Below, piece by piece: positions 23 to 57,871 of a stretch of DNA of 64,000 nt. Under the pieces are notes generated by a model that saw only the letters and a program-made list of their open reading frames with translations, made no database searches and had not been told where the DNA came from. Position 1 is the first letter of the stretch. Every line of letters begins with the position of its first letter. The stretch is taken from the NCBI RefSeq assembly GCF_039555335.1, contig NC_092637.1, positions 3,312,472 to 3,376,471 on the forward strand, read 5' to 3'. This stretch comes from Amphiura filiformis (taxonomy: Eukaryota; Echinodermata; Ophiuroidea; Amphilepidida; Amphiuridae). A program made the position numbers and the translations under genes.

Positions 23-361
23 TTAAAGGAGTATTATGTGATTCTATACCATCCTCTTTTAATGGCATGTTTGAGTAGATGTCCACAAAAAGTTTATTCC
101 CAAATTTTCTGTCGATTCCAATTTTGCATCTGTGACTTATGCATGATTATTGTGTATTACACTGCTCCATGCTACTGTACTGTAATTACATTCTGTTAAC
201 AGAACATATATAAATTTCACAATGTTTTTGCTAATCGAATAAATCTGCAGAAATGTGTTTTGCACGTATTATAGTAGCCAGAGGTTTCCAGCGGTATACA
301 AATTTCAACTTTTTTGTGAAAACTGGGGGATGAGGCTATGGATCACGAAATGCTCCATTAA
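23..361 (+). mobile_element. TTAA-flanked MITE, family T1, copy 1
   Basis: Short element bounded by TTAA at 23-26 and 358-361. The left end reads AGGAGTATTATGTGATTC and the right end GGATCACGAAATGCTCCA, which are imperfect inverted repeats. The same ~310-340 bp body recurs near 22351, 36749, 40070, 56145 and 57270. A TTAA target is typical of piggyBac- and Kolobok-type transposases. No coding sequence is present, so it would have to be moved in trans. Confidence 0.85.
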
Positions 362-16619: not shown

Positions 16620-17525
16620 CCTTCTTCTTCTTCTTCTTCTTCAGGATACTTTTCAACGTCCCGTGAATGGAACCAGGCGAAAAGGGTGTGAGTGCGCAAG
16701 TAGGCGCCTTAGTCTCTGGTTAGATTGTCTTCTTCGTTGAAGAAGACTGTAATGTTTTCTTTAAAGTGCTTGTTGTCTTCGATGGTCTGGATGGTGGATG
16801 GCAGGTTATTCCAATCCTTTATTGTGCGGGGCACAAATGAGTTTTTGAAAGCTTCTGTTCGAGCTGATATTTGAATATATGAGCTGCTGGACGATCTCCT
16901 AGTCTGGCGATTAGCTGGGCGCAGGTAGTCTGACACCGGAAGGGCCAGGTGACCCCCCAAGGCTTTGTGAAGTGTATTGACCCGCGAAATCTTTCTTCTG
17001 GTCGATAGCATTTCCCAGTTGAGTTCCCGTATGAGTCCTGAAGCACTAGTAGTTCTGTCATAATCACCCGTCACCATGCGAGCAGCCTTCTTCTATGTAT
17101 TTTGCCTATCTCATGTATGTGTTCTTTGGTGTATGGGTCCCATACGCTTGAGCAATACTCAACCGTCCATTATTATCATGTCCGTCTGTATGCGTTTGTC
17201 GAAAGAAAAGAAAAGGTCATGCATAGTTTGTATAAGTTGGGAGTCACAGGAATGGCCTCGTCTGAATCCATGTTGAAATTTATTGAGTATGTTGTAAGTG
17301 TCCAAGTGTTTCATTATCTGTGTTATGAGTGAAGTACATGTTCTAAAACTTTACAGCACACTGATGTGAGGGAGACTGGTCTATAGTTCTCCGCTCGGGT
17401 TCTATCACCCTTTTTATAAATCGGGGAGATGTTGGCATTAAACCCAATCTAAAGGAAGTTCACCTGTATCTAGTGATGCTTGGAAAATCTTAGAGAGTAT
17501 TGGCGCCAGTTCATGAGCTGCTTCT
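16620..17525 (-). pseudogene. CR1/L2-like LINE, 3' part (reverse transcriptase and tail)
   Basis: On the minus strand from 17525 the frame resumes 'EAAHELAPIL', then gives 'ANISPIYKKGDRTRAENYRP', 'SLTSVCCKVLEHV' and 'ILNKFQHGFRRGHSC', which are reverse-transcriptase finger and palm motifs. Just after 'QTDMIIMDG' (about 17160) it jumps to 'EYCSSVWDPYTKEH' and 'RAARMVTGDYDRT'-type C-terminal sequence and 'NSFVPRTIKDWNNLP'. The segment with the catalytic FADD box is missing, so an internal deletion has removed the active site. The 3' end is a (GAA)n run at 16621-16642, the microsatellite tail typical of this LINE group. This is the continuation of 24444-26300 beyond the 6.9 kb insertion. It is dead. 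Confidence 0.88.
17509..17525. repeat. 17-bp duplication, left copy
   Basis: GTTCATGAGCTGCTTCT here is identical to 24444-24460. One copy is enough to make the LINE frame continuous (…LKEAAHELAPIL…), so it is a duplication created when the composite entered the LINE. Confidence 0.88.
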
Positions 17526-17544
17526 ATGGGCGGCCGTGAGGGCC

Positions 17545-18390
17545 AAAAGGGTCTCAAAACTACACAAGGGTCTCAAAAGTACAATAAGGTCTCAAAAACA
17601 CACAAAGGTTTCAGAAATAAACACACAGTAATGTCTCAATAGCACAATACGGTCTCAAAAACAGAGAAAGGTCTCAGAAACAAACACACAACAATGTCTC
17701 AATAGTATAATAAGGTCTCAGAAACAGGGAAAGGTCTCAAATACAGAGAAAGGTCTCAAAAACAGAGAGGTCTCAAATACAGAGAAAGGTCTCAAAAACA
17801 GAGAAAGGTCTCAAAAACAGAGAAAGGTCTCAAATACAGAGAAAGGTATCAAAAACAGAGAAAGGTCTCAAAAACAGAGAAAGGTCTTAAAACAGAGAAA
17901 AGTCAAACAAAAAAAGGTCTCAAAAAAGAGAAAGGTCTCAAAAACAGAGAAAGGTCTCAAAAACAGAAAAGGTCTCAAAAACAGAGAAAGGTCTCAAAAA
18001 CAGAGAAAGGTCTCAAAAACAGAGAAAGGTCTCAAAAACAGAGAAAGGTCTCAAAAACAGAGAAAGGTCTCAAAAACAGAAAAAGGTCTCAAAAACACGT
18101 TAAGGTCTCAAAAACACGTTATGGTCTCAAAAACACGTTATGGTCTCAAAAACACGTTATGGTCTCAAAAACACGTTATGGTCTCAAAAACACGTTATGG
18201 TCTCAAAACACGTTATGGTCTCAAAACACGTTATGGTCTCAAAAACACGTTATTGTCTCAATGGTCTCAAAACACGTTATGGTCTCAAAAACACGTTATG
18301 GTCTCAAAAACACATTATGGTCTCAAAAACACGCTATGGTCTCAAAAACACGTTATGGTCTCAAAAATACGTCAAGGTCTCAAACCAGGT
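17545..18390 (+). repeat. left minisatellite arm, 19-bp unit
   Basis: From outside inward, mixed units ending ACAATAA/ACACAAA come first (17560-17730). A block of the AGAGAAA unit follows (17730-18100) and then a block of the CACGTTAT unit (18105-18370). Nineteen is not a multiple of three, so all three frames stay open in the last block and give long but meaningless repetitive frames (18121-18659). Confidence 0.93.
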
Positions 18391-18399
18391 ATTACAACC

Positions 18400-18605
18400 G
18401 ACCGTTATATGTGCAGTACCGCATGCAGTACTATACTGCACACATCAGCAGGCGAAACTACACATTCCGTCACGCACTTCCGCATGAGGAACTACATATC
18501 CCAAGTTGCATTTCCGCATGCGGTGATGCAGGTCAGGATGTGCAGTTCCGATGGGGAACTAAAGTTTTTGGTGTATTTCCGCATGGGGAATTTCGGTATA
18601 TAGGC
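18400..18605. repeat. inner hairpin module, left
   Basis: Repeated short palindromic motifs: GCAGTACCGCATGCAGTACT, TTCCGCATGAGGAACT, TTTCCGCATGCGG, TTCCGATGGGGAACT and TTTCCGCATGGGGAA. They are mirrored at 23440-23580. Each could form a small stem. Confidence 0.8.
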
Positions 18606-18860
18606 CTATGGATGGGTCATTTTGTTTTCAAAATGTTCTTAATTTCTTTTGGAAAATAGCCCAACTTTGCATCACTGCAGCCAAAATGTTTCTCAAATTG
18701 CTTGTAAAAACTAAGACAATTTGTGTTAGATTTGGCCAAAACTTTTGTCCAAATTTCTTACAAAATTACAAGTTGGACTTAAAAAGTCTTATCATATAAT
18801 GCGATTGAAAAGAAATTTTGCATATTTGAACACGTTCTTAACATTTTCCTACACCTTTTA
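18606..18860. other. no recognised feature
   Basis: Unassigned core of the composite. Confidence 0.45.
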
Positions 18861-18894
18861 GGGTGTAATATAGAAACGTTGCCCAAAATATATG

Positions 18895-19080
18895 TGACAA
18901 ACATTGCTTGCATCCCCCTCCCACACCCTTTCGACCTGCCAAAAATTACTTGACCCGCCCTTTCTACCTGCCAAAAAGTGCTCCCCCTTTGACATGCCAA
19001 AACAGCGTTGCGTCCCCCCCCCCTATAATTCACCACCCCGGCCCCGGGGGTACAATTTATTGCACCACCCCTGACAAGTT
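18895..19080 (-). mobile_element. H1-related element inside the composite
   Basis: Reverse complement starts CAGGGGTGGTGCAATAAATT and continues with a G-rich body containing three 'ggca(t/g)gt/gtcaa' units. It was carried in or inserted after the composite formed. Confidence 0.6.
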
Positions 19081-19963
19081 CAGGCGCCTAGAGGTGTAAA
19101 TGAATTGAATAGAAATTTAGTATGAAATGGGTCTATTGAGAAGATTTATCAATTTTGTCCAGGTATTTGGAACATGGGATCACTCAGGGTCCACCCCATA
19201 TCCATGTTGGTATATCACTGTGGAGGATGAATCTTATTCAAAAATTGAGTTTTATTGGAATTCAGCAGCAGGCATTGCATTCACTAATTTGGACATTTTC
19301 AAAACAACTTGCACCTCCCCTCATCAAAACAAAACTTCACTGAAACCCTCCGTTTTTGGCAAAAATCAATGCCTGTTTTACACCACAGAAAAAAAAAAGG
19401 CTTCTTTGTGCAAGGGGTAAATGTGAAAGATAAAAAGCATCACAAAGAGAATATTTTGAGGCAATTTATGAATTGTTTTCAGCTCAAAAACATTGACATA
19501 ATTTGCTTAAAATTGTTTTCCTTATAAATTTGGGTGTTTTTTCTCACCCCTTGCCATTAAAAAAACTCAACAATTAACTTGTCTAATATTGATCAGCCCT
19601 TACATCAGTCACCATGAAAACAAACACATAGATACATGTTAAATTGTATTCTTATTTATAGTCAATTTATTTTTCTAAACACACACAAGTATTCCAACAT
19701 GTGGTCAGTATACATGTATGATTCAAACAAAAATACACAAGTTGTAAAACCTAAAGCATGTGTTACATTTTTAGAATTATTAATAAATTTGTTGTTATCA
19801 AATTTTACTAGCAGTGCCCGTATTATTTTGAATATGCATAATTAACATTAAAAGTTGGGTTGTTTGTCTGTCACTTTTTAATTGATTTAAGGAATATCAA
19901 CAAGGAATTACAAGAATCATAACAAAGCAGCCATGAAAGTGAAAATTTTAGTTCTTTTGACCT
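19081..19963. other. no recognised feature
   Basis: AT-rich core sequence without domains or a clear repeat. Confidence 0.45.
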
Positions 19964-19971
19964 TGGGAACT

Positions 19972-20219
19972 CAGGCCTGTACATGGGGGAGTGGGGAGGG
20001 TGCGACCACACCTTCACCCCCAAATTTGAACAAGTATACACAAAGTACCAAAATATCACATTTTTGTGAGCATAGCAAGCAAAAAAATCAGTTTTTTTAC
20101 GATTTTTTGGACAAAAAAGGTGAAAATTCCACTTTTCACTATATCACCCCCCCCCCCCTGAAAAAAGTGCACTTTCTCAAAATCAGCATCTCCAAAAAAT
20201 CCTGCGTACTACGGGCCTG
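19972..20219. mobile_element. hAT-like MITE, 248 bp
   Basis: Ends CAGGCCTGTACATG and CGTACTACGGGCCTG are inverted. They are flanked by the 8-bp near-duplicates TGGGAACT (19964-19971) and AGGGAACT (20220-20227). There is a C-tract near the right end. CAG...CTG ends plus an 8-bp duplication indicate hAT. Confidence 0.82.
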
Positions 20220-20392
20220 AGGGAACTGTGACAAGCCCTCTAAGCTTACAGCTAAAGAGCATTACTTCTTGTCATTTATATAAAGCACTTATGATTTAGA
20301 GCGAATTTATTCCTAAAAATCATAGATTCTGAATCAGCACCCCAAAATTGACTAAGAACACTTCTCAAACCTTGTATAGCTCTCTGTGTAGA

Positions 20393-20455
20393 CCCCAGTC
20401 CGAAACCCCGTCAGTCCGACACCAGCGCCTTAGACCGCTCGGCTATCAAGGCTTG
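20393..20455 (-). mobile_element. tRNA(Leu/Ser)-like SINE head, degraded
   Basis: Reverse complement 'GATAGCCGAGCGGTCTAAGG' is a class II tRNA A box and D arm. It is followed by 'CGCTGGTGTCGGACTGACGG' and a damaged T arm (GGGTTTCGGACTGGGG). A functional cloverleaf is not formed, so I read it as a SINE relic or tRNA pseudogene. Confidence 0.5.
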
Positions 20456-21299
20456 ATGGTGTCATGATGAAAATTTAAAAATATAATCGCAACTTCATTA
20501 CTTCAACATACCACGTGTGACAAGCAAATACAGAAAACGTACCATATTTTGGAATTTTATTTGTTTAAAAACATTAATGTGTATTAATAGCGCTCAATTG
20601 TTGATAACTGCGTGTTTTATAATACAGAAATAGGAATGAGGCTATACACGCACAATATAGTATAATCGATTTTGATTCACACGTGCGCTACGAACTCGCC
20701 GTATACTAAAAGCACAGGTTATCAAATGTGGCGTGGCCTACCATTTTTCTTGTAGCTTCTTTTATACACGTCGATGTTTTCATCAATTACAAATTAATCC
20801 ACATTAGACCCTAATTTTATTTCAGGAAATAAAAGATTAGATTACCATAAAAACGAAACAGTTATCATTGGTTGGGTCTAATGTAATTTATACATGGAAT
20901 TTTCAACGTTTTTTCTATCGCCATTCTCGCTCAATTAAAAAATATTTTGGCGTATATAAAATTGAAATAAAATTCTCTGCCTCATAAAACGACATCAAAT
21001 GTGCCACAATTGGGTATCACGAATCGTTATATATGATGTGCAGTTAATATTCATATTTTCTTTTATACAGAGGATGCTTCAGTTTTGACAGGAAAATATT
21101 TTCTTGAAAACCCTCTCACTCGGTTATTTTTAAAAGATAACCACGCTTCCCTGGAATGTGCAATAATTACAATTAAAATGTTTATTATTCTAACAGCAAG
21201 CGTTTCTAAAATGCAGTATGGCGAAATGTGGCGTAGATATTAACAAACCATCTAACCCAATAAGTATGATAGGGCCTATATTGTGACGAGCTTAGTAAC
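20456..21299. other. no recognised feature
   Basis: No gene or repeat pair seen. Confidence 0.45.
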
Positions 21300-21302
21300 T
21301 TA

Positions 21303-22350
21303 GGGACCGCTCATTATTAATGTGGGGGGCGGGAAAAATGTAGGGGGTTATGTGATTTTCACTTTGACAAACAGGGGGGTTATGTGATTTTATTTTTCCT
21401 GATAGGGGGGGGGGGGTCATGTGAAATTGAATAGTCATTCACTATATTTTTTTAATACCAAGAATCCTGGAAGGTCTTGCATACAGTAACATACAATATC
21501 AATCATACCATACATAATTGTCTAACTTGACTTGAACAAAATTGTTCCCATTTTGCACCATATGTCACCATTTTAGCTTCAATTGGGGCAAAAATGTGCG
21601 CGCTTCACGCACATTTTGTAGTTATAAACATTGTCAACAGCCAAAATGTGCTGGATTCACTATACCAAGTTCAAGAAATATTTTCTTTTTCCTACCCCAT
21701 CCCCCAATGTCAAAAAAAAGAAATCTACGCCACTGCCATATGCTACACAACCTCTCACTCCTCACCACATTTTGACCACCCCACCTCCAAGCACACACCT
21801 ATAAATTTCAAGATCAAAAGTAGATCTATTGGCATAGGGGTAGATCCGTGGGGATGGGTGGGGTTAAATTCCTCTATTTGGCCAGGGAGATGGTCCATAC
21901 AATCACCTGTAGGCCTATGTGGGTTTCTGACCATATTAACCTCATAATTATTTGGTAATTTTAGTCACAAAATTGCAAATTTTTGTGCTTTTGCAATTTA
22001 TTCCACTTTTGCATCATTTTCATCAATTCAGCTTCAAAATTGCAAAATTTCCTCAGGCTTCGCGCGCATTTGTACAATACACTTATTTTGTCGCCAAAAG
22101 AGCTGGATTCCTATATGACTTCAAGAAATTGTTTCCCACCCCATCACCCCAATGTCAAAATCCCAATCTCTGTGACTAAATTACTTAATATTTAAGTTTG
22201 CTTGAAGCGGGGGAGAGGGGTTATGTGATTTTGTTTGATTCAATAGGGGGTTACATGAAATTGATTCATCGCAATAGGGGGTAGGTATTTTCACCCATAA
22301 AAGCTCAACATTTTCCTGCCCCCCCTCCCGCATTAATAATGAGCGGTCCC
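21303..22350. mobile_element. PIF/Harbinger-like non-autonomous element, 1.05 kb
   Basis: Starts GGGACCGCTCATTATTAATG and ends CATTAATAATGAGCGGTCCC, perfect 20-bp inverted termini. Both are flanked by TTA (21300-21302 and 22351-22353), the 3-bp target typical of PIF/Harbinger. Subterminal 'gggggttatgtgattt' repeats occur at both ends, in opposite orientation. The middle holds two diverged direct copies (about 21541-21730 and 21985-22170) with 'cttcaagaaat' and 'caccccaatgtcaaa'. No transposase. Confidence 0.82.
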
Positions 22351-23372
22351 TTAATTTAGCATGTGATCCTAGCATCCTTTTTTTATGACATTTTTCAGTA
22401 GATATCCACGAAAAAAGCTTATTCACAAAATTTCAATCCGATTTTGCGTTTGCGAGTTATGCATGATTATGTGTACCAGAAACACAAAAACGTTTTAAAA
22501 ACGTTTTAAATAAGTTATATTTTGGCTTTTGGTTTAGGTAAAAACGTTTTAATAACATTAAAATGTCGGGTTATATAAAGGTCATGATAACGTTGTAAAA
22601 CGTTTTGTATGAAAACACACTGCAACAATATTTTTTAAATGTTTTCAATAAATGTTATTGTAAACTATTTTTACAAACATTTTTGCCAAATATTGTGTCA
22701 ATACTTAAATAACATTATGTTAAAATGTTTGAACCCAGAAAACACAGAAATGTTCTTAAAATGTTTTTTTCAAAACGTTTTGATAACATTTAAATGTCGG
22801 GTTATGCAAAGGTCATGAAAACGTTTTTAAAACGTTATTGAAAATATTTTGGGCAAACATTTTTCGCAAAATATTTTTTCAACTGTAACATTCTGTTTAG
22901 AATGTTTTGTATCAAGTTTTCAAGAATGTTTTTGGAAAGTTATTAAAACGTTTTTATACCCTTTATATAACCCGACATTGTAACGTTTTCTGTAAAACAT
23001 TTTTTTTGCTGAGCAGTAGACTATCAAAAATGTTTTTTAAGGTTACGAAAACGTTTTATACTCTTAATATACCCTTTATATAACCCGACATTTAAACGTT
23101 TTCTGACAACCTTTTATAACCTTTTGCGAATGATGTCGAAAACGTTTTGTGTTTGCTGGGATATTACACTGCTCCATAGGCCACTGTTGTAATTTCGATC
23201 TGGTATACCGGTACCGGTTTCATGTCACGATATTTTTGCTAAATGAATTAATCTGCAAGAAATATTTAGTACATAAACATTATGTAGCCAAAAGTTCCAA
23301 TGGTATAAAAATCTCAACTTTTTTTTTTTTTTTTTGGGGGATGAAGCTGTGGATCACGAAATGCCCTTTTAA
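22351..23372 (+). mobile_element. TTAA MITE family T1, copy 2, interrupted
   Basis: TTAA at 22351-22354 and 23369-23372. The left part ends at 22475 and resumes at 23162 after a nested element. The uninterrupted relatives read 'gattatgtgtattacactg' across the join. The left TTAA overlaps the TTA target of the Harbinger-like element, so it inserted right at that element's edge. Confidence 0.85.
22476..23161. mobile_element. nested TA-type element, family M1, 686 bp
   Basis: Begins CCAGAAACACAAAAACGTTTT and ends AACGTTTTGTGTTTGCTGGG(A). It is flanked by TA (22474-22475 and 23162-23163), and excising it with one TA restores the T1 element exactly. The body is made of AACGTTTT motifs and mirrored 'ataacccgacattt' / 'aatgtcgggttat' units. 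A second copy is at 27688. Confidence 0.88.
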
Positions 23373-23439
23373 CTGCATGTCAAAGCACCTAGCCATATGC
23401 CTTAAACTTTTAATTAATACATCCAATTCAAAAAAATAC

Positions 23440-23580
23440 AAAAAATTGCATTTCCCCATGCGGAAATACACCAAACATATTGCAGTTCCCCATACGGAAA
23501 TACACTATAAAAATATTGCAGTTCCCCATGCGGGACTGCAAGCGGATGTTGCAGTACTGTATGCGGTACTGCATATATAC
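23440..23580. repeat. inner hairpin module, right
   Basis: 'tttccccatgcggaaatac', 'gttccccatacggaaatac' and 'gttccccatgcgggactgc', then 'gtactgtatgcggtactgc'. This is the inverted counterpart of 18400-18605, a unit of about 38-50 bp. Confidence 0.8.
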
Positions 23581-23584
23581 GGTC

Positions 23585-23769
23585 GGTTGTATGATTTGAG
23601 ACCTAGTTTTTGAGACCAAGATGTGTTTTTGAGACCAAGACGTACTTTTGAGACCCTTTTGGCACTCACAAAAGGTCAACGCCGAGGAATACTATGGGCG
23701 GCCGTGTGTGCCAAAAGGGTGTCAAAACGTACGTTCATGTCTCAAAAACACGTCTAGGTCTCAAATCAG
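23585..23769. repeat. back-to-back termini inside the composite
   Basis: A right-type terminus (TTTTGAGACCCTTTTGGCAC, ending about 23667) is followed by 24 bp of other sequence. A left-type terminus (ATGGGCGGCCGTGTGTGCC at 23692) comes next, with short stubs of the GGTCTC array and the 'ggtattacaaccg' inner motif. This looks like two foldback elements meeting tail to head, or an internal rearrangement of one. Confidence 0.72.
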
Positions 23770-24443
23770 GTATTACAACCGAGACCGTTCTCTGTTTTTG
23801 AGACCTTTCTCTGTTTTTGAGACCTTTCTCTGTTTTTGAGACCTTTCTCTGTTTTTGAGACCTTTCTCTGTTTTTGGTATCTCTCTGTTTTTGAGGCCTT
23901 TCTCTGTTTTTGAGACCTTTCCCTGTTTTTGAGACCTTTCTGAGACGTTTCTCTGTTTTTTGAGACCATAACGTGTTTTGAGACCATAACGTGTTTTGAG
24001 ACCATAATGTGTTTTGAGACATAACGTGTTTTTGAGACCATAACGTGTTTTTGAGACCATAACGTGTTTTTGAGACCATAACGTGTTTTTGAGACCATAA
24101 CGTGTTTTTGAGACCATAACGTGTTTTTGAGACCTTTTTCTGTTTTTGAGACCTTTCTCTGTTTTTGAGACCTTTCTCTGTTTTTGAGACCTTTCTCTGT
24201 TTTTGAGACCTTTCTCTGTATTTGAGACCTTTCTCTATTTTTGAGACCTTATTGTACTATTGAGACCTTGTTGTGTGTTGTTTCTGAGACCTTTCTCTGT
24301 TTTTGAGACCTTATCTTTTGAGACCTTATTGTGTGTTTATTTCTGAGACCTTTATGTGTTTTTGAGACCTTATTATGTTGAGACCTTATTATGTGTTTAT
24401 TTCTGAGACCTCTTAGACCTTATTGTATTTTGAGACCCATTTT
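23770..24443 (-). repeat. right minisatellite arm, inverted 19-bp unit
   Basis: Inverse of the left arm. From the outer edge inward (24443 down) it has mixed CACAATAA units, the AGAGAAA block, the CACGTTAT block (about 23955-24130), then a further AGAGAAA block not seen on the left. The outer end (…GAGACCCATTTT) lacks the ~19-bp GGCCGCCCAT-type terminus present on the left. Confidence 0.92.
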
Positions 24444-24460
24444 GTTCATGAGCTGCTTCT
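24444..24460. repeat. 17-bp duplication, right copy
   Basis: Identical to 17509-17525. It marks the right border of the composite within the LINE frame (ILKEAAHE). Confidence 0.88.
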
Positions 24461-26300
24461 TTAAGAATTCTGGGGGATATGCCATCAACCCCTGCGGCTT
24501 TGTTTGGATTTAAGTCTTTCAGAAGCTTCTCAATCCCTGGCGTGTGGATAGTGATGTTTTCAATAGGTGGTGTTGTATTTTGAGCAATATTAGGTGTAGA
24601 ATGAATGTCCTCCTGTGTGAATACTGAGCAAAATTGGTTATTCAGGATGTCAGCCTTCTGTTTGTTGTCTGACACTAGAGCACCATGGTCTTTTAGTGCT
24701 GAAATACCAGTGGAGTCCTTGGAGATGTTTTTAATAAAGGACCAGAATTGCTTTTTGGAATCCAGACAAACATCTCTCACATATTTTGTATATGAGAATT
24801 TGGTCACTTTGTGTGTGTCCTTCCTTATTGATGTGAAATTGTCCCAGTCAGAGCTATTACCACTTATACGGGCCTTGTTATAGGCTCTTTGTTTACGCCG
24901 TTGCATGCGTTTTATTGTGGGACTTATCCAAGGAGTTTTATTTTGCTTGCTCATGATCTTGGATGGTATGTATTTATCCATTGTGGTATTCAGATGTGAT
25001 TACAGAGACATTACCACTTGTGTGAGACTTATTGCAAAACTCATTGCTAAACCTGTTGAGCTCGTTTTTAATACCAGGCATATCGGCTTTATTATATAAA
25101 TAGGCTTTATGCGGTTTCTGTTTGTTACGTTTGGGGGAGGTATTGATGATCAACATAGCGATCCCATCGTGATCACTCATTCCGGGAATCACAATGGACT
25201 TCTCAACGAGCGTAGCATTGGTGGTGAAGAACAGATCCAAAATGTTGTTTTTACGGGTGGGTTCCGTCACCATTTGTTCAAGATTGAAGTCATTAGCAAG
25301 ATCTATCATCTGGTGACAGATATTTTTGACTGGGGAACCTTGACGCACAGATTGAGAATTCCACTGTATATCACCCAAGTTGAAGTCCCCCCCTTAACCA
25401 AATATGATCATTTTTTGATCTTTTGATTTTGGCCAGGGAATCATACAACAAATTTAGATAATTGAGATCCTTTTTATCAGGTGTTCTATAAAATGATCCT
25501 ATTATCAAGTTCTTACATCCAACAAGTTGGACCTGAGTCCAAACTACCTCGCAAGCAGTATCAAGATCGAACCTATGAGCACCGATTAGGTCATTTTTAA
25601 GAACAATAATGACTCCTCCATAGGAATCTTCCCTGTCCTTTCTGAAAGCTGTGTAACCTGCAGGGATGAGTTCCTCGCTTTTCACAGAGGGGTTGATCCA
25701 TGTCTCACTACCGATGACAATATCGGGTTTATGACTGTCCAAACAAGCAGCAAAATCTGCCACTTTGTTTTTCAAACTGCCAAAATTAATAACCAACACT
25801 TTCAAAGGTCTTTTAACCTTTGATTGTGGTTTCCGTTTTGGTTTGTGGGCAGTTGCTGTTTATCACCCTGTTTTTGAGGTTGTTTGGGAGACGACGATGC
25901 CATTGGTGGACTTAACGGTGCACCATCACTACTTAGGTTTTCCAACCCAGAAAAACTATTAGACATGTTCATTGACCACTGTGAGAAGAGGGAGGTACTG
26001 TAATTGGGCATACCACAACTGCAGCATATCCAGGAGACATTTGAACCACCAAGAGCCTCATACATGACGGTGTTCATGCTCATACATTGTGTGTGGAACC
26101 AACCGTCACATTCATCGCACTGAACAGCTCTTTGGGTCCAAGTGCAGGGGTCTTGGCAGATGATGCATGGAAATTTAGAGCAACTTGCATCACGATCATC
26201 TTTGGAAACAGGCCCAGGCCCCGGGTTCGGTTCAGTGTCTCCGGATTGCATAGGCAAATTCTCCTGCTCATCTATGTGTAAACAGTTTATGAGCCAAAGT
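24444..26300 (-). pseudogene. CR1/L2-like LINE, 5' part: 2A-like, PHD finger, endonuclease, start of reverse transcriptase
   Basis: Reading the minus strand from about 26300, a 2A-like 'MQSGDTEPNPGP' (26257-26222) comes first. A PHD finger (Cys4-His-Cys3: CIIC, CDECDGWFHTQC, WICCSC) lies at about 26180-26020. Next is an APE-type endonuclease ('LVINFGSLKNK', 'VIGSETW', 'YGGVIIV', 'SFYRTPD', 'DHIWLRGG', 'DFNLGDIQW', 'PGMSDHDGI') at about 25805-25100. A linker follows and then 'LKDLNPNKAAGVDGISPRIL', the first reverse-transcriptase block, stopping at 24444. Frame changes occur near 25805, at a G7 run near 25388 (inside the GG-DFN motif), and near 24990. With the 17525-16620 part this would be nearly full-length, but it is inactive. 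Confidence 0.88.
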
Positions 26301-27687: not shown

Positions 27688-28565
27688 CCCAGCAAACACA
27701 AAACGTTTTCGACATCATTCGCAAAAGGTTATAAAATTCAGAAAACGTTTAAATGTTGGGTTATATAAAGGGTATATTAAGAGTATAAAAAGTTTTCATA
27801 ACAATAAAAAACATTTTCTGATAATCTACTGGCCAGTACACACAAAATGTTTTACAGAAACTTTAAAATGTCGGGTTATATAAAGGGTATAAAAACGTTT
27901 TAATAACATTCCAAAAACATTTTTGAAAACTTGATACAAAACAAAACATTCTATACAGAATGTTATATTGGGGTTGAAAAATGTTTGTCCAAAATATTTG
28001 CAATAACGTTTTAAATACATTTTCATGACTTTTATATAACCCGACATTTAAATGTTATTAAAACGTTTTGTAAAACACGTTTTAAGAACATTTCTGTGTT
28101 TGCTGGGTGCAAATATTTTAACATAATGTTATTTAAGTGTTGACAAAATATTTAGCAAAAAATGTTTGCAAAAATAGTTAACAATAACATTTTGAACGCA
28201 TTTTAAAAATATTGTTATAGTGTATTTTCATACAAACCGTTTTCATGACCTTTATATTTAATGTTATTAAAACGTTTTGAAAAAAAAAAACATTTTAAGA
28301 ACATTCCTGTGTTTGCTGGGTGCAAATATTTTAACATAATGTTATTCAAGTGTTGATAAAATATTTGGCAATTCGTTTGCAAAAATAGTTTACAATAACA
28401 TTTTGAAAACATTTTAAAAATATTGTTGTAGTGTGTTTTCATACAAAACGTTTTAAAACGTTTTCATGACATTTATATAACCCGACATTTTAATGTTATT
28501 GAAACGTTTTACCTAAACCAAAAGCCAAAATGTAACTTATTTAAAACGTTTTTGTGTTTGCTGGG
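27688..28565. mobile_element. TA-type element family M1, longer copy with internal duplication
   Basis: CCCAGCAAACACAAAACGTT … AACGTTTTTGTGTTTGCTGGG, flanked by TA (27686-27687 and 28566-28567). A unit of about 220 bp starting 'gtgtttgctgggtgcaaata' occurs twice in tandem (about 28096 and 28310), so terminal-like motifs also lie inside. Same family as the nested copy at 22476. Non-coding; TA target of Tc1/mariner type. Confidence 0.87.
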
Positions 28566-33124: not shown

Positions 33125-33196
33125 ACTTATTAGCTCAGTTGGTAGAGCATCGGTCCGGTGATCCGAAGGCCTCAGGTTCAAATCCTGGATTGTTGG
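33124..33196 (+). tRNA. tRNA-like sequence, plus strand, Thr(GGT)-like anticodon
   Basis: Full-length outline: TAGCTCAGTTGGTAGAGC (A box and D arm), anticodon arm TCGGT-CCGGTGA-TCCGA with loop triplet GGT, and T arm TCAGG TTCAAAT CCTGG (B box). Against function, position 33 is C instead of U, one anticodon-stem pair is T-T, and the acceptor strands (GACTTAT / ATTGTTG) do not pair well. Likely a tRNA-derived (SINE-type) sequence, perhaps still with a Pol III promoter. Confidence 0.65.
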
Positions 33197-36748: not shown

Positions 36749-37057
36749 TTAAAGGAGTATTTTGTGATCCTGGCATCCTCTTTTTATGACACTTTTCAGC
36801 AGATATCCACACAAAAAAACTTGTTCCCCAAATTTCAGTTGATTCCGATTTTGCATTTGCGAGTTACACATGATTATGTGTATTATACTGTTCCATGGGC
36901 CACTGTGTTGTAACTTTCAAATTTGTCCATATTTGTCTAACAAATTCATTTCCAAGATTAGTTTCTACATAAACATTCTGTATCAGAAGGTACCCCAGTG
37001 GTATAAAAATCTCTTTTTGTGGGGGATGAGGCTGTGGATCACGAAATGCCCCTTTAA
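36749..37057 (+). mobile_element. TTAA MITE family T1, copy 3 (most intact)
   Basis: TTAA at 36749-36752 and 37054-37057. AGGAGTATTTTGTGATCC … GGATCACGAAATGCCCCT are inverted ends. It is uninterrupted, so it serves as the reference for the other copies. Confidence 0.88.
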
Positions 37058-40074: not shown

Positions 40075-40240
40075 TACGTTCTGGTATACCAGAATGAAAT
40101 TACAACACAGTGGCGTATGGAGCAGTGTAATACACATAATCATGCATAACTCGCAAATGCAAAATCAGAATAAACTGAAATTTTAGGAATACGCTTTTTC
40201 ATGGATACTGAAAATGCTAGGATGACAAAATACTCCTTAA
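40075..40240 (-). mobile_element. TTAA MITE family T1, truncated copy
   Basis: Minus-strand start TTAAGGAGTATTTTGTCATC at 40240, through 'gcgagttatgcatgattatg' and 'tggtataccagaac'-type sequence. The distal half is missing. Confidence 0.82.
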
Positions 40241-43070: not shown

Positions 43071-43072
43071 TA

Positions 43073-43681
43073 CGAGGGGGGGTATCCAAAAGTTTTTGAC
43101 ATCACCCAGAAGGAAAAGAGCTATATTGATGACATTTTGTCAGTGTAATCACTGGTCCTTATGTACATTATGGTCCAAAAATGGTCTCATAAGTATGTTT
43201 AATTTTTTACAGGTGGCGCTATGATGGGCAATAGGCGCATAACCTTTTCATGATAAGATCCTCCACTTTTTTGAGTTTTTTCACTGTGGCCGCATCATCC
43301 GTAAATGATTGACGTCCACTTCTTGGCTCATCTGTAAGGGACATGCGGCCAGTTTGAAAATTCCTTTTTCAAAAAGCAACAGTGCCATATGATGGGCAAT
43401 CATCACCACAGATAGCTTTCATTTCATCATAGATTTTCTGAGCATTCTAGGCCAACCCTCCAAATGCAGAAACTTAATCAATATGCGTGCCTCAATTTTC
43501 ACTACCTTACAGGTTATGCGCCTACTGCCCATCTAGCGCCACCTGTAAAGAAAGTAAACATACTTATGAGACCATTTTTGGACCATAATGTACATAAGGA
43601 CCAGTGATTACACTGACAAAATTTCATCAATATAGCTCTTTTTCTTCTGGATGATGTCAAAAACTTTTGGATACCCCCTCG
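43073..43681. mobile_element. mariner-like element, 609 bp, ~170-bp TIRs
   Basis: CGAGGGGGGGTATCCAAAAG … CTTTTGGATACCCCCTCG with TA at 43071-43072 and 43682-43683. Inverted similarity extends inward through 'cagtgtaatcactggtcctt', 'ggtccaaaaatggtctcata' and 'acaggtggcgct', an unusually long TIR. A minus-strand transposase relic lies in the middle. Confidence 0.87.
43270..43500 (-). pseudogene. mariner-like transposase N-terminal remnant (paired-like HTH)
   Basis: Reverse strand reads 'IEARILIKFLHLEGWP', then after a frame change 'DEMKAICGDDCPSYGTVAF', a stop, 'KRNFQTGRMSLTDEPRSGRQ' and 'SFTDDAATVK'. This matches the N-terminal helix-turn-helix and 'DEPRSGRP' linker of mariner transposases. 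The catalytic domain has been deleted, which explains the short element. Confidence 0.83.
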
Positions 43682-43898
43682 TAAGGGCAGGCCCTCTCAA
43701 CTCGCAAAGTCCTCCCTTAACATATTGGCACTTCATGATCTCTCAAATTTTCCTTTGGCACTTAAAATAAACTAGTTAGAAGGCCTGAGACTACAAGATT
43801 CCCATTGCGGCTGCCTGCACAGGTACGCCGTCACCAAGGTAGCGGGCTGGTACATGGAGAGTATACCTACACAGCACCAATGATGCTTCTGCACATTA

Positions 43899-43976: not shown

Positions 43977-44382
43977 AGAGCGTGGCGCAATGGTTAGGTA
44001 CTTGCCTTTAGTGCATGAGGTCCCGGGTTCAATTCCCGGTGGTGGTGATTTACTGGGATACTGACTTGGATAAAAAGATCTGAAATTAATTGGCAGCATT
44101 TGTAGATTAAATTCAGACTTCCGCTCTCCACATGGTTCATTTAGAATTGTGTAAATGAATCATGATACTACCCTGTCCTTCGGATGGGATGTTAAGCCGT
44201 CGTTCCCGTGTGCAGAGAGCCATTACTGTACATGTATCTCGCAGCCAGTTTCGAAAAGAGTAGGGTTTTAACTCCTGACTGTTCCCAACCCGTCCCGGTA
44301 TTCAAATGGACCCCAATGGAAATAAGCTTCAATGTAGGCTTTCTTGGGTTATCCAGGCTCGTCCAAACCCGAACAAATCAAA
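43977..44382 (+). mobile_element. tRNA-derived SINE, near full length
   Basis: Head: 'GAGCGTGGCGCAATGGTTAG' (A box) and 'GGTTCAATTCCCGG' (B box) in tRNA spacing. Body: 'ccttcggatgggatgttaag' + 'ccgtcg', a conserved-looking central block. Tail: 'caaatcaaatcaaaa'. About 400 bp in all. Pol III-transcribed SINEs of this plan depend on a partner LINE for mobility. Confidence 0.82.
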
Positions 44383-46868: not shown

Positions 46869-46946
46869 AATGACTTACCTAAAAGGTTAGTAATTCAATA
46901 TAAATTGGAGTTTACACCGGAAATGTAAATACCCCGGAATACTTAC

Positions 46947-47009
46947 CTCCACTGGCTCCTTCTTTCTCGCCTGATACTACATAACCAATATGCGCCACTG
47001 CTCTGTTTT
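46947..47009 (-). CDS. tandem exon copy 1, 63 nt
   Basis: Minus strand: acceptor 'tttcttgtttgcaattaatag', then exon ending GGAGCCAGTGGAG, then donor GTAAGTATT. In the phase set by the candidate first coding exons at 51031 or 53224 (one base carried over) it reads open: NRAVAHIGYVVSGEKEGASG. 63 nt keeps phase, so it can be included or skipped without a frameshift. The protein is unrecognised. Closest to the 3' side of the three copies. Confidence 0.58.
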
Positions 47010-47607
47010 CTATTAATTGCAAACAAGAAATACATTCAAATAATATTTCCAAGAAACTGTGAGAGATTTAAATTAAACTAGACGCCACCCAAAGTAACAA
47101 GATTCAGACTGCCTGCCCTCCAGTAAAAGGAAAGTCAGTTTCCTAACAAGTTTCAAGTGGCACTAGATTTGCTTGTTTCTTGCCCAGATGAACTTCAAGC
47201 AAATATTTCCAAGAAACAGTGTGAGATTTAAACTGAAAAGAAACACATACCTCAGCATATCAAATGGACATTTCGACTGTCTGCCTTTGGGTCGAGAGAA
47301 AGGCAAATTCCTAGATTTCCTTGTTCTTTGTCCAGAGGAACTTTAAGCTATTCATCGTTGTAGTGCGATGTTAAAATTGAGTCAATGGGTTGCTAACAGG
47401 TGTACAACCCATGCAAGTCTTGAGCACAAACCAGATGAATCACTCACTACAACGGCAAATTAAAGTCAATTTTCTTTAATAAGTACAGCTAGATGAACAG
47501 TGTGCGGGGTCAATGCTGCCTTGCTGATTTCCATCCTGACTGCAAAGCTATTCATTGAATTCAGTATTTCCATTTAAATTACAATTTGCATTTACATAAA
47601 TACTTAC

Positions 47608-47671
47608 CTCCACTGGCTCCTTCTTTTCTCGCCTGATACTACATAACCAATATGCGCCACTGCTCTGGGTT
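47608..47671 (-). CDS. tandem exon copy 2, 64 nt
   Basis: Near-identical to copy 1, with the same acceptor and donor. One extra A makes it 64 nt. It is open in the same incoming phase (PRAVAHIGYVVSGEKRRSQW) but exits in a different phase. It is therefore either a decayed copy, a mutually exclusive exon leading to another end, or affected by a sequence error in the A4 run. Confidence 0.5.
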
Positions 47672-48031
47672 CTATTAATTGCAAACAAGAAATACATTCA
47701 AATAATATTTCCAAGATACTGTGAGAGATTTAAATTAAACTAGATGCCACCCAAAGTATCAAATAAAGATTCAGACTGCCTGCCCTCCAGTAAAAGGAAA
47801 ATCAGTTCCTAACAAGTTTCAAGTGGCACTAGATTTGCTTGTTCCTTGCCCAGATGAACTTCGAGCACATTAAACTCAATTTTCTTGCATAAATGCAGAT
47901 GAATAGTGTTTGTGGGGTCAAATGATTCTTTATCAATTTCTATTCTGACTGCAATAAGCTATGATTGAATATAAGCTAATATAGTATGTATTTCCATTTA
48001 AAATACAGTTCATATCTACATAAATACTTAC

Positions 48032-57269: not shown

Positions 57270-57414
57270 CCAAATTTTGAGCCATACATCATCATCCCCC
57301 ACTTTTCTAAAAAAAAGTTGAGATTTTTATAGCACTGGAAACCTCTGGCTACATAATGTTTATGTACAAAATATTTCTTGCAGATTAATTCGTTTAGCAA
57401 AGATATCGTGAAAT

Positions 57415-57664
57415 TTGAATGTTTGTCATCGGCCTCAGACTGTGGTGGAACTCACTTCCTGGCACCATCCTAGTCTCACCGTCTGTTGAGACTTTCAGGG
57501 AGCTGTGGCGGCATCAATCTAGTCTGCAGCTATTGGTTTTTTACTCGCACACTGTATTTGTATTAATACACACACTCACTCTTGCACCACTCATGGACAA
57601 AGTCCCTCGGCTATACATCCACATGTGGAACCTACCGAGTACAGAAGTAGAAGTAGAAGTGTAG
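57415..57664 (+). pseudogene. CR1/L2-like LINE 3' end fragment
   Basis: Frame 'GLRLWWNSLPGTILVSPSVE' + 'TFRELWRH' is the LINE C-terminal WNsLP motif. The UTR ends in tandem AGAAGT (57643-57661), its 3' tail. It is inserted inside the T1 MITE. The frame is intact only for about 35 codons. Confidence 0.72.
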
Positions 57665-57871
57665 GAACCCATGGATTCGACCACTGTTGATTTGACCCAT
57701 GTAACATTGTCTATGGAGTATGGAGCAGTACACATAATCATGCAAAAAAATAACTCACAAACACAAAATCGGAATCAACTTAAATTTTGGGAATAAGCTT
57801 TTTTCGCGGATAGGCCTATCTACTGAAAAATGTCATGTATTAAAAAGAAGATGATAGGATCACGAAATACT

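Follow-up and report, generated by a model that had tools for sequence, protein, structure and literature searches.

By what route did an insert of 6,918 base pairs (bp), carrying no recognisable protein, enter another mobile element and come to be flanked there by target-site copies of 17 bp? The question is posed by a stretch of 64,000 bases (containing no N) on contig NC_092637.1 of the brittle star Amphiura filiformis, referred to below as the window, whose content of guanine plus cytosine, at 35.9%, resembles the value of 36.67% given for the genome of this species (PMC11310086). Within it, a jockey-like long interspersed nuclear element (LINE) is split by the insert at positions 17526-24443, which is bounded by inverted arms of short tandem repeats and consists of two copies of one element joined head to tail. 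All features of that element described here come from this single locus. With moderate confidence, they are best explained by a single insertion event, in which a non-autonomous DNA transposon of the foldback type was already a head-to-tail dimer, its second copy having no core, when it moved.

Perfect 17-bp direct repeats, GTTCATGAGCTGCTTCT, abut both borders of the insert, at 17509-17525 on the left and at 24444-24460 on the right (both on the plus strand, and both identified by sequence match and by the LINE reading frame), and no further copy is found in the window at up to 3 mismatches, where shuffled sequence leads one to expect a mean of 0.14. The duplication is exactly 17 bp in length, the neighbouring bases being unlike each other on both sides of the two copies. 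Repeated 17-mers as such are not rare in the window, with 99 start positions at a spacing of 2-12 kilobases (kb), and mostly lie within repeat families (60 of the 99 were inspected); the improbable part is the placement of such a pair at both borders, for which about 6e-7 occurrences are expected within +/-50 bp. The minus-strand frame of the LINE is open when one copy of the repeat is kept (...VDGISPRILKEAAHELAPILSKIFQASLDTGELPLDW...) and is broken with zero copies or with two. The first-pass annotation of this DNA, which was made from its letters alone, had proposed both the duplication and the restored frame, and there is good support for its broader claim that a foldback-type element lacking any recognisable protein entered a LINE in a single insertion.

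The uninterrupted state of the site is represented by an A. filiformis LINE protein (P0002, so named by NCBI) that is continuous across it and is the same as the window LINE at 308 of 312 aligned columns (104/105 plus 204/207). Of 210 LINE relatives found, 120 were aligned to the stretch around the site; a score cut left 112 above it and 8 below, and all 112 span the insertion site, 111 of them without a gap, while the sole gap (in P0120) lies upstream of the site and not at it. The host LINE is itself defective, with frame changes and an apparent internal deletion in its reverse transcriptase. On the minus strand, its upstream part (24461-26299) holds a 2A-like leader, a cysteine-rich region, the endonuclease and the start of the reverse transcriptase, with frame breaks, and its downstream part (16709-17508) runs from the reverse transcriptase start through the apparent deletion to the C-terminal region. 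The leader, MQSGDTEPNPGP at 26216-26242 on the minus strand, resembles a 2A ribosome-skipping peptide and stands ahead of a cysteine-rich, PHD-like region; PF00628 is present in some of the LINE relatives. Leaders of the 2A type are also known from sea-urchin LINEs.

The arms of the insert are built from a 19-bp unit, GGTCTCAAAAAC(AGAGAAA|ACGTTAT), in arrays that point inward from both ends of the insert, as had been noted in the first-pass annotation and as both a unit-by-unit reading and Tandem Repeats Finder confirm. The hexamer GGTCTC (or its complement GAGACC) occurs 74 times in the insert versus 5 times in the remaining 57 kb. The left long arm (17550-18384, plus strand) can be divided into block A (about 17550-17732, of mixed 19- and 25-bp units), block B (about 17733-18084, ...CAGAGAAA) and block C (about 18085-18375, ...CACGTTAT). 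In the right long arm (23782-24443, minus strand), the same blocks follow one another from the outer end inward, at approximately 24438-24249 for A, 24248-24135 for B and 24134-23968 for C, and are followed by an extra B block at about 23967-23787. Both arms have a transitional unit, GGTCTCAAAAACAGAAAAA, at the border between B and C, and 18-bp units within C. When the 43 left units were aligned with the 24 right units of blocks A, B and C, the score was 128.5, versus 55.1 +/- 14.8 for shuffled unit orders (reached by none of 1000); this was a second test, from which the 9 inner units of the right arm had been removed after a first test with all 33 proved non-significant. Block A alone gave 72.5 versus 39.9 +/- 7.2 (reached by none of 2000 shuffles). 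The earlier claim of a matching block order thus holds for A-B-C and fails at the extra inner B block of the right arm. The insert has two of the features by which a foldback element is recognised, namely long inverted arms of short tandem repeats and an insertion with a target-site duplication.

Inside these arms the insert is a head-to-tail pair, in which a long left arm, a core and a short right arm are followed by a short left arm, no core and a long right arm. The first copy occupies 17526-23693 on the plus strand, its boundary at 23693/23694 being placed by the internal recurrence of the left-end motif. Inward of its long arm lies a module (18376-18622, plus strand) that combines the junction CAGGTATTACAACCGACCG with palindromic repeats, each about 35 bp long, resembling TTCCGCATGCGG, and beyond the core lies its mirror (23382-23603, minus strand); compared without any array units, the two give an inverted match of 133, versus 28 +/- 5 for dinucleotide shuffles (maximum of 49 in 500), in agreement with an earlier reading of a second, mirrored hairpin module within the arrays. 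Single-strand folding of four stretches gave z values of -1.4, -2.7, -2.1 and -3.3, versus +1.2 and +0.6 for two controls from the core. The short right arm of the first copy (23594-23669, minus strand) has 3-4 units and ends in ...CCCTTTTGGCACTCAC; after 24 bp between the copies (AAAAGGTCAACGCCGAGGAATACT, 23670-23693), the second copy (23694-24443, plus strand) opens with an internal left end (23694-23781, plus strand) consisting of ATGGGCGGCCGTGTGTGCC, 2-3 units and the junction CAGGTATTACAACCG, to which the long right arm is directly adjoined. The short arms of the two copies thus meet at 23594-23781, and the surroundings of this dimer junction (23590-23735) fold strongly (z -6.4). The 24-bp AAAAGGTCAACGCCGAGGAATACT has no second copy in the window at up to 6 mismatches, its nearest match differing at 7 of 24 positions, and its last 17 bp, considered as a second target duplication, have no partner there at up to 4 mismatches. 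One possibility for the origin of the dimer, considered because it fits long outer and short inner arms, is that a copy with long arms recombined, within the core, with a short-armed copy that was circularised or in tandem, and that the second core was lost afterwards.

The ends of the element are asymmetric. The left-end motif (ATGGGCGGCCGTGAGGGCC, 17526-17544, plus strand) contains ATGGGCGGCCGTG, which occurs in the window, at up to 2 mismatches, only at 17526 and 23694, that is, at both left ends and both times on the plus strand, and is absent from both right ends. The inner right end retains only GTGAGTGCC ahead of its array, and the outer right end begins with AAAATGGGTCTC and has no terminal motif. 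Of the 38 and 31 GGTCTC sites in the long left and right arms, only those of the first two left units and of the outermost right unit are extended to GGGTCTC, and because this variant is confined to outermost units the array seems to end natively at the right outer border and not at a random break. The proposal that ATGGGCGGCCGTG could serve as a search string for the element consequently stands for its left end, and for the internal position on the same strand, and fails for the right end. Neither the dimer nor the asymmetry of its ends had been part of the first-pass annotation, and the anatomy of the insert is more complex than was described there.

The core (18623-23381) contains no stop-to-stop open reading frame longer than 138 amino acids that lies wholly within it, and when 10 of its 46 listed open reading frames were compared with Pfam, no match came near the cut-off (best E 0.091), in line with the earlier statement that there is no transposase inside. 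Scans for transfer RNAs (tRNAs) and with Rfam found nothing within the insert, and no Rfam hit reached the gathering threshold. When the translated array was used as a protein query, it returned one weak match (P0121, E 0.0036, 39% identity over 42% of the query) that is repetitive itself and is probably a chance match. Penelope-like elements and retrozymes carry a hammerhead ribozyme core, and a simple motif scan for CTGA[TA]GA found none on either strand of the insert; Helitrons were likewise set aside, given that a target duplication is present.

According to the favoured account, the transposase would be provided in trans and would recognise both the left-end motif and the arms with their many units and GGTCTC sites; it would then link the outer ends to target DNA that had been cut with a 17-nucleotide stagger, and repair synthesis would convert that stagger into the 17-bp duplication. 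The element would thus have moved as DNA, already in its dimeric state, through the action of a single enzyme, and its approximately 70 GGTCTC units would be putative transposase sites, by analogy with the tandem repeats of Galileo. This account draws support from the exact duplication and the LINE frame restored by keeping one of its copies, from the colinearity of blocks A, B and C in the two arms, from the enrichment in GGTCTC, from the sister LINE that is intact across the site and the 112 relatives that span it, from the mirrored inner modules and from the GGGTCTC units that mark the outer array ends; Tm1 offers a precedent for one-sided motifs outside tandem-repeat arms, and Galileo one for repeats in long terminal inverted repeats to which the transposase binds. 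Several observations weigh against it. When all 33 right units were included, a nucleotide-level local alignment of the arms scored 827.5 versus 792 +/- 39 for unit shuffles, which is not significant (the maximum of 300 shuffles was 946.5); this result is read here as a consequence of the extra B block, thanks to which shuffled orders align well. The match of 133 between the inner modules is only moderately above the best random pair from the core (103, among 175 pairs), and those modules are partly self-palindromic, scoring 78 in direct orientation. One of the four folded stretches is unremarkable (the z of -1.4 given above), as is the left end (z -1.3), and over their outermost 19 bp the outer ends do not mirror each other. 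Neither Tetris nor Tm1, two foldback elements discussed below, is described as having a 17-bp duplication in the available passages of their reports. A search with three exact patterns for a second or autonomous copy gave no hits, in a collection (the viral contigs of IMG/VR) that does not represent animal genomes.

The length of the duplication can also be accounted for by a sum. If two Mutator-like foldback copies had inserted 8-9 bp apart on two chromosomes and had then been fused by unequal exchange, the product would combine the left part of one copy with the right part of the other, and their summed duplications would appear at each border. This reading, an unlikely one, is favoured by the facts that the insert truly is made of two copies joined together, long-armed on the outside and short-armed on the inside, and that 17 equals 8 plus 9 (or 9 plus 9 with an overlap of one), within the 8-10 bp of Tetris and the usual range of Tm1; it requires two independent insertions no more than 10 bp apart, and it does not predict a 24-bp joint whose nearest match in the window, LINE included, still differs at 7 of 24 positions. 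That joint, together with the differing ends and composite content of the insert, is instead what might be left by repair of a double-strand break, in which the staggered ends of a broken LINE were filled in and part of a foldback cluster was taken up, and in that event the duplication would be uninformative about any transposase. Such an origin is also unlikely: random capture would rarely yield a fragment that ends on the outermost array unit at the right and on the terminal motif at the left, and there are no extra or shared bases at either border.

A more improbable route is target-primed reverse transcription, in which an RNA of the element would have been copied by the machinery of a LINE. 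On the minus strand, the constant 3' end would in that case be ...CACGGCCGCCCAT and the variable 5' end AAAATGGG..., which agrees with the presence of one constant end and of another without a motif; 17 bp also falls in the range of elements without long terminal repeats (for human-specific L1 a peak at 15 bp is cited in PMC11195612), and primate retro-DNAs offer a precedent for DNA transposons that were copied by such a route. Neither end has a poly(A) or microsatellite tail, a point that counts only weakly because just 176 of the 748 retro-DNAs have poly(A) (PMC11195612), so that absence of a tail does not exclude this route. Both arms are retained, although here the comparison is limited by the fact that retro-DNAs were chosen for lacking terminal inverted repeats (TIRs) (PMC11195612). 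The minus-strand duplication begins TTAA/AGAA and not TT/AAAA, and a 6.9-kb transcript with inverted arms would seem an unlikely template. Finally, two unrelated arrays might have been misjoined during assembly. Arrays of near-identical units are prone to such errors, and the published A. filiformis assembly was built from Nanopore R9.4.1 reads and 10x linked reads (PMC11310086), so that small insertions and deletions in the arrays may be errors if the window derives from that assembly. A misjoin would not be expected to create an exact duplication of 17 bp, or to leave a LINE whose frame closes across the insert, and an artefact is very improbable.

The core of the insert also holds nested repeats. 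A MITE-like insert (21302-22351) has a perfect 21-bp TIR with a GGGACCGCTCATTATTAATG core and TTA on both flanks, and next to it lies a dispersed repeat (22361-23372) that is split at about 22476-23160 by an ACGTTTT-rich insert. Comparison with an uninterrupted relative suggests that this insert made a TA duplication; it belongs to a family with CAAACACAAAACGTTTT-like ends whose other member, at 27688-28553, is 85-88% identical to it. The dispersed repeat recurs in both orientations, with at least five occurrences in the window (23-361, 22361-23372, 36749-37057, 40075-40214 and 57292-57871). Elsewhere in the window, two Rfam tRNA matches (33129-33190 at 44.5 bits and 43981-44041 at 29.4 bits), neither of them called by ARAGORN, are probably the heads of tRNA-derived short interspersed nuclear elements. 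An inverted repeat at 43071-43245 and 43511-43683, whose halves agree at 94.9% of 176 columns and are separated by about 265 bp, is perhaps another short foldback-like element, and a direct repeat at 46938-47204 and 47599-47870 is 94% identical over 273 columns, with related stretches extending to 48216.

The length of a target duplication serves as a fingerprint of the transposase that made it. If further copies of this element prove to carry 17 bp, then either a new enzyme or a known enzyme acting differently would be at work; if they carry 8-9 bp, the locus would illustrate how exchange can fuse two insertions that lie close together. The left-end motif, present at two places, can be used as a search string for such copies. 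There is a low probability that the locus belongs to a eukaryotic transposase lineage marked by a 17-nucleotide stagger, tens of GGTCTC units and a one-sided end motif, in which case an autonomous copy, with its gene between the palindromic modules, would be expected elsewhere in the brittle-star genome.

Among known systems, the sea urchin TU element is an echinoderm foldback with 15-bp tandem repeats in its arms and 8-bp duplications. A TU-like family had been suggested in the first-pass annotation and is a candidate assignment; the 17 bp found here would not fit the 8-bp length, in a comparison made with the general description of TU only; a sea urchin foldback is also mentioned in a report on Tetris (PMC4079207). 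A literature search found no foldback in a brittle star, and the passages retrieved for a foldback with a 17-bp target duplication contained no such case, 17 bp having other meanings in them: the length of a repeat unit in Tm1 (PMC3169594), the remnant of a deletion (PMC1952172) and the CENP-B box (PMC5139131). Reports on 17-bp target-site duplications in association with transposons dealt, by their abstracts, with an SVA insertion in humans and with a gene of soybean. Casposons were set aside as an example of long duplications, being prokaryotic, and the passages available on them give no length. Retro-DNAs resemble the present case in combining DNA-transposon sequence with long duplications, but they are defined by the absence of TIRs, include the poly(A) copies counted above and have duplications that peak at 8 bp (PMC11195612), whereas the element described here has both arms and no tail.

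Closer parallels are found among foldback elements of other animals. In Galileo, a foldback-like member of the P superfamily, the tandem repeats of long TIRs hold binding sites for the transposase, a THAP protein that the element itself encodes (PMC3688188) and of which none was found in the 10 core reading frames compared here. Tetris, a foldback of Drosophila virilis, shares multi-domain long TIRs with tandem repeats, rearranged forms and a middle domain without apparent coding capacity, and differs in its units of about 220 bp and its duplications of 8-10 bp (PMC4079207). Of 53 complete copies of Tm1 of the root-knot nematodes (Meloidogyne), which is assigned to Mutator/Foldback, 45 have duplications in the range of 8-10 bp, with 9 bp the usual length, and the remaining 8 are outside that class; a MULE-domain transposase is the product of a putative autonomous copy of Tm1 (PMC3169594). 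The 10 of 46 core reading frames examined here gave no sign of such a protein. These lengths agree with the earlier remark that 17 bp is long for such transposons, and the present element is not filed as Mutator/Foldback because 17 bp falls outside the 8-10 bp by which that group is defined. In its architecture, Tm1 nevertheless appears to be the nearest of the foldbacks compared: its arms are tandem repeats of variable copy number (in 14-bp units there and 19-bp units here), with a conserved motif at their inner end and unequal lengths within one element, some of its copies have no protein, and outside its arms lie short, one-sided terminal motifs, neither of which is the inverted form of the other (PMC3169594).

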